Of a stretch of 64,000 nucleotides of DNA, positions 15,607 to 30,357 are shown one piece after another. A model generated the notes under the pieces. That model was not told where the DNA came from. It worked only from the letters and a program-made list of their open reading frames with translations, and ran no database searches. How positions within the stretch are numbered: the first letter of the stretch is position 1; the number at the start of each line of letters is the position of its first letter. The position numbers and the translations under genes were made by a program. Source of the DNA: Cycloclasticus sp. (GTDB lineage Bacteria > Pseudomonadota > Gammaproteobacteria > Methylococcales > Cycloclasticaceae); NCBI GenBank assembly GCA_002700385.1, contig PADC01000005.1, positions 1 to 64,000 on the forward strand, in the 5' to 3' direction.

Positions 15607-16509
15607 ATAAAACCCATTTTCTCAAAAGGCCCTGCTACCAGCACTCGTTTTATTGCTATCGTGGTTGTCTCCATTTTGCTGTTATTAATAGCAAAACAAA
15701 CCCAGCACCTCAATCGATTTAAAGACATGTTGTCTTTTGTCGTCCACCCTGTTTTAGTGGCTGTTGATTTACCCAGCCAACTGTTTCAGTGGCTCGCAGA
15801 CAATACAACAGGATACGCAGAATTACGTGAAGAAAACCATCGTTTAAAATCCGAGTCCTCACTGCTAAAGGTCAAATTACAAAAATTTAATGCCTTAGAA
15901 ATGGAAAACACCCGTTTACACAGCCTGCTGGAAACCTCTTTCAAGCTAGGCGAACAGTTTATCTCCGCTTCTCTGATTAAAGTAAACCAAAACCCGAATA
16001 CAACCAATATCCTCATAGACAAAGGCAGTCGTTTTAATTTATATAAAGGACAAGCTGCGCTCAATGAGGACGGGGTGCTTGGCCAAATTGTGGACGTTCA
16101 CCCTCTGACCGCGTCCATTATGCTGATTACAGATCCTAATCATGCGATTCCAATCGAAATAAACAGAACAGGATTAAGAACCATAGCGGCCGGCAATGGT
16201 ATACAAAACACCCTGATCTTACCCTATATCCCTCATAATGCCGATATTCAAGTAGGTGACTTACTCACCACCTCTGGTTTGGGTGGTGTTTTTCCAAAAG
16301 GTTACCCTGTTGCTAAAATAACTCACCTCACCCCTCTTGAAGGCGAGGCCTTTATGCATGCTGAAGCTCAAACCATGGCAAAAATAGAACGGACTCAAAA
16401 TATTTTATTGGTATGGAGCAAGCAACAGCCCATTCCGCTTGTCCCCGCAGAGCCAATGGGACCTGAAAAACCAGCCACACTTGATCAGTTGCCCCCTAAT
16501 GCACGCTAA
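15607..16509 (+). CDS. mreC: Rod-shape-determining protein MreC, with a probable non-standard start codon
   Basis: MreC is a bitopic periplasmic scaffold linking MreB, MreD and PBP2. From the in-frame GTG at 15661 the product is 282 residues but would begin inside the transmembrane segment. Upstream in the same frame (opened by a TAG at 15580) the sequence reads I-K-P-I-F-S-K-G-P-A, matching the classical MreC N-terminus MKPIFSRGP, with ATA at the Met position (15607). No ATG, GTG or TTG occurs between that stop and 15661. AAAGG ends at 15597, nine bases before the ATA. A coiled coil (about residues 70-110 of the 300-residue form) and the beta-domain motifs GQIVDVHPLTASIMLITDP follow. ATC at 15601 is an alternative start. 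Confidence 0.9.
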   Translation: MKPIFSKGPATSTRFIAIVVVSILLLLIAKQTQHLNRFKDMLSFVVHPVLVAVDLPSQLFQWLADNTTGYAELREENHRLKSESSLLKVKLQKFNALEMENTRLHSLLETSFKLGEQFISASLIKVNQNPNTTNILIDKGSRFNLYKGQAALNEDGVLGQIVDVHPLTASIMLITDPNHAIPIEINRTGLRTIAAGNGIQNTLILPYIPHNADIQVGDLLTTSGLGGVFPKGYPVAKITHLTPLEGEAFMHAEAQTMAKIERTQNILLVWSKQQPIPLVPAEPMGPEKPATLDQLPPNAR

Positions 16510-26542: not shown

Positions 26543-27556
26543 CTAGGCAATCCACGGTTGTTGCTCAAATTTTTCTACTACCTGATGATGTTCAATCAAG
26601 CCAGCCAAAGGTTTTAGCTCCTCATAGCGTTCACTGATCGTTATCAAATAGCCTAAGGTGCGAGGGATGTCCTTTAAATACCCTTCTTTCCCATCCCTTA
26701 ATAATAAACGTGAAAAGATACCCACTGCTTTCATATGGCGTTGAACCCCCATCCAATCAAACCATTGATAAAATTGCCGATGATCAAAATCATCCACTTC
26801 ACCACGTTCTTGTCGTTGTTTGAGAAAATCATCAAGCCAAGCGTAAATTTTTTCATCGGACCAGGCTATGTAACAATCTCTATATAAAGAAACCAGGTCA
26901 TAGGTGAGAGGTCCAATCACAGCATCTTGAAAATCAATAACGCCGGGATTATTGTCTTTTGTCACCATCAGGTTTCTGGAGTGGTAATCTCTATGAACAA
27001 ATACCTGAGGTTGTTCCAAGGCAGATGCTGCTAATTTTTCCTTAACCTGACTCAAGGTTTCTTTATCCTTAAACGATAAATCAATGCCCAACAAGGTCTT
27101 CAAAAACCACTCACCGAATAAATCCATTTCCTGTCGCAATAAAGCCAAATCGTAGGATGGTATCAACAGATCCTTTAACCCGATTCCATGCATTTGATGC
27201 AGCACTTGAACCGCATCTTTATATTGCTTATCCACAGTTCGTTCTGTCAGCTGATCCAAATAACTGTCTGAACCTAGATCACTGAGCACCAAAAACCCAT
27301 CTTCAAGAGATTGATGAAAAATTTTCGGCGCATTAATACCTTGTGCCTTCAGCAAGTTAGCCACTGCAATAAAAGACGTACAGTCTTCTTTTAAAGGCGG
27401 TGCATCCATGACCACAAACGATTGATCATCAAATTGAACTCGGAAATAGCGCCTAAAACTCGCATCACTCGATGCCGCTTCGATGCTAAAGTTTTTAATC
27501 GAAAAAGTAACCGCCAGCCAATCCATTAATTGCTGTTTTCGCTCATCTATTGCCAT
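26543..27556 (-). CDS. amgK: N-acetylmuramate/N-acetylglucosamine anomeric kinase
   Basis: AmgK phosphorylates the C1 of MurNAc or GlcNAc freed during peptidoglycan turnover and feeds MurU. The 337-residue protein is an aminoglycoside-phosphotransferase-fold kinase with the catalytic loop HRDYHSRN (His188, Asp190, Asn195) and the metal-binding Asp208 in VIDFQDA. It is divergent from lptD, as in Pseudomonas putida, where the amgK-murU pathway was defined. Confidence 0.94.
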   Translation of the reverse strand: MAIDERKQQLMDWLAVTFSIKNFSIEAASSDASFRRYFRVQFDDQSFVVMDAPPLKEDCTSFIAVANLLKAQGINAPKIFHQSLEDGFLVLSDLGSDSYLDQLTERTVDKQYKDAVQVLHQMHGIGLKDLLIPSYDLALLRQEMDLFGEWFLKTLLGIDLSFKDKETLSQVKEKLAASALEQPQVFVHRDYHSRNLMVTKDNNPGVIDFQDAVIGPLTYDLVSLYRDCYIAWSDEKIYAWLDDFLKQRQERGEVDDFDHRQFYQWFDWMGVQRHMKAVGIFSRLLLRDGKEGYLKDIPRTLGYLITISERYEELKPLAGLIEHHQVVEKFEQQPWIA

Positions 27557-27702
27557 AAAAAATACTCTGTCAAACCTATTTAACTCATACCGAAAAATTG
27601 CATGTTAATATATGAGAAATTTTCCACAGTATCGTTGAAGAATTCATCATTCTATGCGATTTTATACAACTTAACGTTAGACACAACCAAAAAGGTTTCA
27701 CC

Positions 27703-30357
27703 ATTATCCTTTCCTATAAACATTTTCTTTTAGCCTCTGTGCTGATCTTGGCCACTTCTCCATCCTTAGGCTTTAATAATTCGCAATGGGATTGCAAATT
27801 GGCCAACGATGGTCAAACCTGGGATTGCTCGACTTCAACAAAACCCGTAAAAAAAACAGCACCTAAGAACCCTGCCAACGCGTCTGTCGCTAGCAAGAAA
27901 GGTCCTGTCGCTAAAAAAACTGAGCATAAGCCCAATAAACCTTCTATCCCCCGTGTTCAATTAACTCAAAAAGCCGTGCCAAAAAAACAAGAAAAGGCTC
28001 CCACTAAGGTGTCTACTAAAAATACAGGTGCCTGGGATTGTCAAACGCATGAAAGCGGCCACTGGGACTGCGCCCAGACAAGCGAACCAAGCGCGGTTGT
28101 TATCGCTTCAAGCGCAACCCTGGAAGAAGTGCCTTTAAGTGACCCAAATGCAGATCGAATTAGAAATAGTTTGCTTTTTCAACAAATGGTCAAACAGCTT
28201 AAAGCAAACCCTTGGGATACCTGTAATGTCAGCACAGACACCCTTCGTCAAAGCAGACAAGCTTTGCAACAAAATCGCTTAAATGCTGAGGTGAATATCC
28301 AGTCTGACTACGCAGAGGTTCTTAACGAAAACAACGCTCGATTTTCTGGCGATGTCCTCGTTAATCGGGCAGATCAATCTATCTCGGCTGATCAAGTCAC
28401 CTATAACAATGACCTGGAAAATGCGTCTGCCTCTGGTGACGTTTTTTATCAAGAGCATGGTTTTGCCATACACAGTGACCAAGCAGAATTACAACTGGCT
28501 AAAAATTCTGGGCAATTCACGCAAAATCAAATGATTCTTGAAGCCACACATGCCCGGGCGACAACACAAACAACCCGTCTAATCAATCGTCATATTTCTG
28601 AATCAACACAGGTGACCTATACCACTTGCGCTCCAACAGTTAATGACTGGGAACTGCAAGCGAGGTCTCTTGAACTGAACAAAGAAACCGGGCGTGGCAC
28701 AGGTCGTGATGTTTGGGTGGAAGTTTTTGATATTCCTCTGCTCTATACACCTTATATTAGTTTTCCTATTGATGACCGCCGTCAATCTGGTGTGCTTACA
28801 CCCACGTTTGGCAACTCCGACACAACAGGTATCGACTTTTCTATTCCGTACTACTGGAACATTGCCCCTAACTACGATGCAACGCTTACACCACGTTTCA
28901 TGACTGACCGTGGCCTGATGTTGGGCGGTGAATTTCGCTATTTAACTCAACATTCCGAGGGGCAAGTCTCTGCCGAAATTCTCGATGATACCGACACAGA
29001 TGAATTACGAGGCCAGTTCTCTTTCCAAAACAAGTCTACCCTTAGCGCTCGATTAACTTCTGATATTGACCTTAACTACCTGTCTGACGATGACTATTTG
29101 GAAGATTTTGGGAACAGCCTGAGTACCTCAAGTGATCGTTATCTAAAAAGCCATGCCAGCCTTAATTATCGAGCTGATCACTGGAATTTACTGACTAGAA
29201 TAGACAACTACGACTCGATTGATGAGTCTATCCCCAGTTCTGCCAGACCTCATCGCCGCCTACCAAGAGTACTTTTTAACTTCCATGAGCGCGAGGTGTT
29301 TGGTGGTGCAAAAGTCACTATGCGTAATGAATTTGTTTATTTTGAACACAGTGCAGATGTCGATGCTAAACGCCTGGATTTACACCCTGGCATTAGCCTT
29401 CCATACAGAACAGCCGGGGCTTTCTTTACCCCAAGATTAAGCCTGCGACACACTGAATACCGCCTGCAGGATCAAGCAAATACAATAGACAATCATCAAA
29501 GCAGAACCTTGCCTATTTTGTCGGTTGACTCTGGTCTCTTCTTTGAAAGGAACCTGGATTTTGCTAACGGCATGGTACAAACCTTGGAACCACGCGCCTA
29601 TTATTTGTATGTGCCACATAAAAACCAAGATCATATCCCTTTATTTGATACCTCTGAATACGACTTTAGCTTCAATCAATTATTCAGAGAAAACCGTTTC
29701 TCTGGCGCTGATAGAGTAGCCGATGCAAACCAACTAACTTTAGCCTTAACCTCGAGGCTTATTGAATCATCAACGGGTAATGAAAGATTAAGGGCCAGCG
29801 TTGGAACAATTGTTTACTTTGATAACCTTGATGTAGGACTGAGCCCCACCAGCGATTCGATCAGTGAAGAGACCTCTGATCTGGTCACAGAATTTTCTGC
29901 AAAAATCACGGATACCTGGTCTACTCGCTCTGCCCTTCAATACGACCCTCACGCTGGCAAAACTCAAAAAGCCAGTCTCGGTTTTCATTATCGTGACAGT
30001 GCAGACCGCCTATTCAATGCCACCTACCGTTCGCGCTATGAAGCAAACTCTGATGATATTGAACAAACTGATTTATCTTTCAAATGGCCTATTAGCAAGG
30101 AATGGAGTACGGTTGGTCGCTGGAATTATTCTGAAGAACACAACTTGTCACTTGAAACATTCTTAGGACTGGAAAAAGACACCTGTTGCTGGCGTGCTAG
30201 AGTGATCGCCAGACGATATGTTAACGATGCACTGGATGAAGAGCCTAAAGAAGGCATTTTCTTCCAATTCGAACTCAAGGGCCTCACCAGTTTTGGCGAG
30301 AAGCTGGATTCATTTTTAGAAGAAGGCATATTGGGTTATCAGCCACCTGATGAATAG
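27703..30357 (+). CDS. lptD: LPS-assembly outer-membrane protein LptD, with a probable non-standard start codon
   Basis: LptD is the beta-barrel that, with LptE, inserts LPS in the outer leaflet. From the only standard in-frame start (GTG, 27739) the product is 872 residues but lacks the charged start of a signal peptide. The frame stays open upstream to a TGA at 27613 without any ATG, GTG or TTG. It encodes I-I-L-S-Y-K-H-F-L-L-A ahead of the hydrophobic core, with AAAGG ending at 27695, seven bases before ATT at 27703. The adjacent Cys pair (816-817 in GTG numbering, DTCCW) that forms the essential disulfides is present. An unusual lysine-rich N-terminal stretch carries four WDC motifs. Confidence 0.93.
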   Translation: MILSYKHFLLASVLILATSPSLGFNNSQWDCKLANDGQTWDCSTSTKPVKKTAPKNPANASVASKKGPVAKKTEHKPNKPSIPRVQLTQKAVPKKQEKAPTKVSTKNTGAWDCQTHESGHWDCAQTSEPSAVVIASSATLEEVPLSDPNADRIRNSLLFQQMVKQLKANPWDTCNVSTDTLRQSRQALQQNRLNAEVNIQSDYAEVLNENNARFSGDVLVNRADQSISADQVTYNNDLENASASGDVFYQEHGFAIHSDQAELQLAKNSGQFTQNQMILEATHARATTQTTRLINRHISESTQVTYTTCAPTVNDWELQARSLELNKETGRGTGRDVWVEVFDIPLLYTPYISFPIDDRRQSGVLTPTFGNSDTTGIDFSIPYYWNIAPNYDATLTPRFMTDRGLMLGGEFRYLTQHSEGQVSAEILDDTDTDELRGQFSFQNKSTLSARLTSDIDLNYLSDDDYLEDFGNSLSTSSDRYLKSHASLNYRADHWNLLTRIDNYDSIDESIPSSARPHRRLPRVLFNFHEREVFGGAKVTMRNEFVYFEHSADVDAKRLDLHPGISLPYRTAGAFFTPRLSLRHTEYRLQDQANTIDNHQSRTLPILSVDSGLFFERNLDFANGMVQTLEPRAYYLYVPHKNQDHIPLFDTSEYDFSFNQLFRENRFSGADRVADANQLTLALTSRLIESSTGNERLRASVGTIVYFDNLDVGLSPTSDSISEETSDLVTEFSAKITDTWSTRSALQYDPHAGKTQKASLGFHYRDSADRLFNATYRSRYEANSDDIEQTDLSFKWPISKEWSTVGRWNYSEEHNLSLETFLGLEKDTCCWRARVIARRYVNDALDEEPKEGIFFQFELKGLTSFGEKLDSFLEEGILGYQPPDE

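Follow-up and report, generated by a model that had tools for sequence, protein, structure and literature searches.

Comparative sequence analysis indicates that lptD, an essential outer-membrane gene, starts in the oil-degrading marine bacteria of the genus Cycloclasticus at a conserved weak ATT or ATC codon instead of ATG, and that this property is real and genus-wide. The window that we analysed, a stretch of 64,000 nucleotides from a Cycloclasticus sp. genome of 2.5 Mb, carries lptD on the forward strand (positions 27703..30357; 884 amino acids when counted from the ATT). Its predicted product, the LPS-assembly outer-membrane protein, belongs to the LptD family, as judged by a match to PF04453 of 338.6 bits (E 4.2e-101) against a curated cut-off of 22.4. 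The lptD frame is open from 27616 to 30357, after a TGA codon at 27613-27615, and its inspection confirmed the original prediction that no in-frame ATG, GTG or TTG is present between this stop codon and a GTG at 27739..27741 (forward strand).

The proposed initiation codon is the ATT at 27703..27705 (AUU in the mRNA). It is followed by ATC CTT TCC TAT AAA CAT TTT and thus by the residues I-L-S-Y-K-H-F, the beginning of a signal peptide that had been read from these codons before. Seven nucleotides separate the ATT from a Shine-Dalgarno sequence, AAAAAGG (27689..27695), which contains the AAAGG previously noted at this distance, and all coordinates that had been given for the start region proved correct. 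The signal peptide, M-ILSYKHFLLASVLILATSPSLG (27703..27771, with a predicted cleavage site), has an n-region with K/H, a hydrophobic core and small residues, features that are kept throughout the genus. No usable ATG, GTG or TTG is available to the gene in the window, where canonical codons occur in the start region only within this signal peptide.

An alignment of the lptD 5'-end across relatives, which had been proposed together with the original prediction, bore it out. We compared 18 Cycloclasticus species, each represented by a separately assembled genome; part of this collection consists of draft or metagenome assemblies, while the genomes G001 and G007 are single contigs. lptD is present in all 18. 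In 17 of them the arrangement AAAAGG, a spacer of seven nucleotides and AT(T/C) is found at the same alignment column, exactly 28 codons 5' of the WDC motif in mature LptD. The spacer never deviates from seven nucleotides in these 17 species, and the six Shine-Dalgarno bases (zero entropy at each position) and the leading AT of the start codon are likewise invariant. Across all 18 species, the aligned codon is ATT in 16 and ATC in two. One species is ambiguous: G017 has ATT at the aligned position plus an in-frame ATG four codons upstream. Six species (G007, G008, G011, G012, G013 and G014) possess a frame that is devoid of ATG, GTG and TTG all the way from the upstream stop codon to the mature part of the protein, and in several of these the stop codon is located just four codons 5' of the ATT. 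The n-region of one of them, G011, is without a basic residue.

The pattern of sequence variation marks the same site. On the 3' side of the ATT, the entropy at the three codon positions amounts to 0.99/0.70/1.23, so that variation tracks the codon positions; on the 5' side, the corresponding values (1.09/0.98/1.04) are without a codon pattern, and indels disrupt the frame. The distance from the ATT to the WDC motif is fixed, and the ATT is the sole triplet that lies at a constant distance from both the invariant Shine-Dalgarno sequence and the mature protein. Collectively, the alignment indicates that the AAAAGG-N7-AT(T/C) pattern at lptD is more than a product of chance, and the earlier reading of the ATT as the start of lptD is well supported, with initiation at this codon inferred from its conservation. 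An assembly or sequencing error that conceals an ATG, which the draft or metagenome status of some genomes might bring to mind, had been named as an outcome that would speak against this reading. It can be excluded for all practical purposes, because 18 separately assembled species share the same start region with no canonical codon at the start column; AT(T/C), the Shine-Dalgarno sequence and their spacing are identical in 17 of these, the single-contig genomes G001 and G007 included.

Translation might alternatively begin at the GTG at 27739, with the part upstream of it left untranslated. No canonical codon precedes this GTG in the frame, and a gene finder limited to ATG, GTG and TTG would pick it. 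At the corresponding column, however, GTG is present in only 2 of 17 species (the window and one other), the remainder having GCC, GCT, TCG, ATT, TTA or other codons, and the six species mentioned above lack any canonical start before the mature part of LptD. A protein beginning at this GTG would read M-L-I-L-A-T-S-P..., with an n-region devoid of charge, as had been pointed out before, so that the conserved n-region would be deleted; furthermore, the AAAAGG sequence is positioned 43 bases upstream of it. We therefore regard a start at the GTG as very unlikely.

Upstream of the start region lies an intergenic DNA block that is strongly conserved in the genus alignment (TTGAAG...CATTCTATGCGATTTTATAC; 27635..27667, forward strand) and that contains an ATG (27654), embedded in ATGCGATTTTATAC. 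A start at this conserved ATG, reached directly or via a frameshift, would give LptD a longer N-terminus. In G001, G002, G004 and G015 its equivalent is conserved and in frame, and the lptD frame of these species contains an ATG at a distance of 16 codons 5' of the ATT. In the other species it is out of frame or stopped, as in the window (ATG CGA TTT TAT ACA ACT TAA); the indels between it and the ATT are not multiples of three, and in the window no AAGG-like Shine-Dalgarno sequence precedes it. We consider initiation at this ATG very unlikely. Since it is in frame with lptD in only 4 of 18 species, the block is conserved as DNA and not as a start codon; it is possibly the core promoter of lptD. 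A scan for sigma-70 promoters returned one hit, at chance level. Coupling of lptD to an upstream open reading frame was considered and rejected, as the stop codon of such a frame has no fixed position relative to the ATT. The divergent upstream gene, an open frame on the reverse strand (26543..27556), is presumably amgK-like, judging from gene order and sequence.

While the conservation of the start is directly visible in the alignment, we infer initiation at the AUU, its weakness, its dependence on IF3 and its benefit. With high confidence, we propose that lptD is translated from the AUU at 27703, which the initiator tRNA would decode as fMet, and that the invariant AAAAGG seven bases upstream, placed within unstructured RNA, would aid this event. 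Since IF3 discriminates against AUN codons that differ from AUG, it would limit initiation to a level several-fold to tenfold below that of an AUG, and this level would vary with IF3 activity. The weak start probably keeps LptD production low, and the likely benefit would be that translation holds the supply of this outer-membrane barrel, which is difficult to assemble, at a low level. RNA structure is ruled out as a special feature of the lptD start: the region of the Shine-Dalgarno sequence and start codon has no excess of structure over shuffled sequences (z -0.22).

To our knowledge, few bacterial genes retain an AUU, AUC or AUA start codon over evolutionary time, and on the basis of its sequence lptD most likely joins this small group, alongside infC and pcnB. 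In the open-licence literature we found no paper on an lptD gene with an AUU start. The infC gene, which encodes IF3, has an AUU start under IF3 control (PMC5472188); like lptD, it combines a conserved AUN codon (AUU, AUC or AUA) with a Shine-Dalgarno sequence and lacks a canonical start, but it is autoregulated by its own product, whereas the envelope gene lptD could solely be a target of IF3. Within Cycloclasticus, infC has an ATC start in each of the 17 genomes in which the gene is present (loci L043-L059; G000:C12:300552-301085). This ATC is preceded by a GGAG-type Shine-Dalgarno sequence and is invariant while other isoleucine codons of the gene vary; on visual inspection, the IF3 of the genus appears typical. 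The GUC (GTC) start of Streptomyces sigR is likewise a conserved non-canonical start, repressed by IF3 and verified in the laboratory, albeit with another codon and in another lineage (PMC5472188). In Staphylococcus aureus, the AUU and AUA starts of cvfC1, ccpN and citZ yield about 10% of the expression obtained with AUG in poor medium; those of cvfC1 (AUU) and ccpN (AUA) are conserved and lower initiation, as we propose for lptD, but they have an extended Shine-Dalgarno sequence and measured initiation, whereas the proposed lptD start has AAAAGG, a moderate Shine-Dalgarno sequence (PMC13009471). The AUU start of Escherichia coli pcnB, the same codon as in lptD, is cited as limiting the amount of protein (Binns and Masters 2002, cited in PMC13009471). 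Cycloclasticus pcnB (L159-L174) differs in this respect, as it has a conserved TTG near the N-terminus as its apparent start.

The weak codon could also be a product of neutral drift without a regulatory role, a view that shares the start site with our proposal and differs from it in the benefit assigned. Regulation of lptD in Cycloclasticus is, as far as we know, unstudied, and a change from AUG to AUU could be tolerated. Against drift stands the finding that the start column is never ATG, GTG or TTG in the 18 species, although a single substitution (ATT to ATG) would suffice, and that the third base of the start codon is more constant than that of other isoleucine codons: it is fixed in 16 of 18 species, against 0.50-0.78 at the other invariant isoleucine columns of lptD, of which there are only three. 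We consider drift unlikely. The start column is ATT in 16 of 18 species for lptD, ATA in 16 of 16 for mreC and ATC in 17 of 17 for infC, while the majority codon at other invariant isoleucine columns of these genes usually reaches 0.47-0.78 (0.94 at one infC column); isoleucine codon usage in the sampled genes is 0.57 for ATT, 0.25 for ATC and 0.19 for ATA. Each gene thus holds its own AUN codon, which suggests that selection acts on the start codon rather than on isoleucine.

The original prediction had likened lptD to mreC (15607..16509, forward strand). This holds insofar as mreC also lacks a canonical start and has an ATA at 15607, but the mreC case is far wider. In all 16 genus members examined (among loci L026-L042), the ATA occupies the column of Met1 of E. 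coli MreC, where E. coli itself has ATG. ATA, ATT or ATC is found there in 20 of the 29 best-scoring loci at the order level (L110-L138) and in about 19 of the 30 best-scoring loci, from different families, at the class level (L270-L299), where three loci have ATG and one has GTG. Nearly all mreC loci with an AUN codon are without a canonical codon just upstream. Roughly two-thirds of the gammaproteobacterial loci sampled therefore have AUN at the mreC start, a rough fraction, since some alignments are uncertain and the loci are the best-scoring ones. Among the open-licence papers examined, none described this start, and the pattern merits a separate study. The genus-wide occurrence in lptD and the wider one in mreC suggest that weak initiation sets the dosage of envelope proteins. 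More tentatively, and with considerable doubt, the weak AUN starts of mreC in Gammaproteobacteria, lptD in Cycloclasticus and infC might form a small IF3-controlled set that couples construction of the cell envelope to the condition of the translation apparatus. Gene finders limited to ATG, GTG and TTG would misplace the starts of lptD and mreC and remove the signal peptide.

Such starts are rare within the genome. Two stretches of the window's genome, one of 161.7 kb (168 frames) and one of 140 kb (84 frames), were compared with G001 and G007, and flagged frames were judged by eye; among these approximately 250 conserved genes, only mreC (AUA), lptD (AUU) and infC (AUC) were without a canonical start. 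With three such genes among 168 plus 84 conserved frames, a genome-wide relaxation of start-codon use is not apparent. Elsewhere in the order, the majority of the lptD frames inspected from other families carry ATG or GTG upstream of the signal peptide, and the weak lptD start hence seems particular to Cycloclasticus. A single possible parallel was noted in another gammaproteobacterium, isolate OFTM67, whose lptD locus (L219, positions 1441-1530) has GAGAGA-N6-ATC-GCC-ACC-CGA-CGC before a signal-like stretch and no canonical start, so that lptD may start at ATC there.
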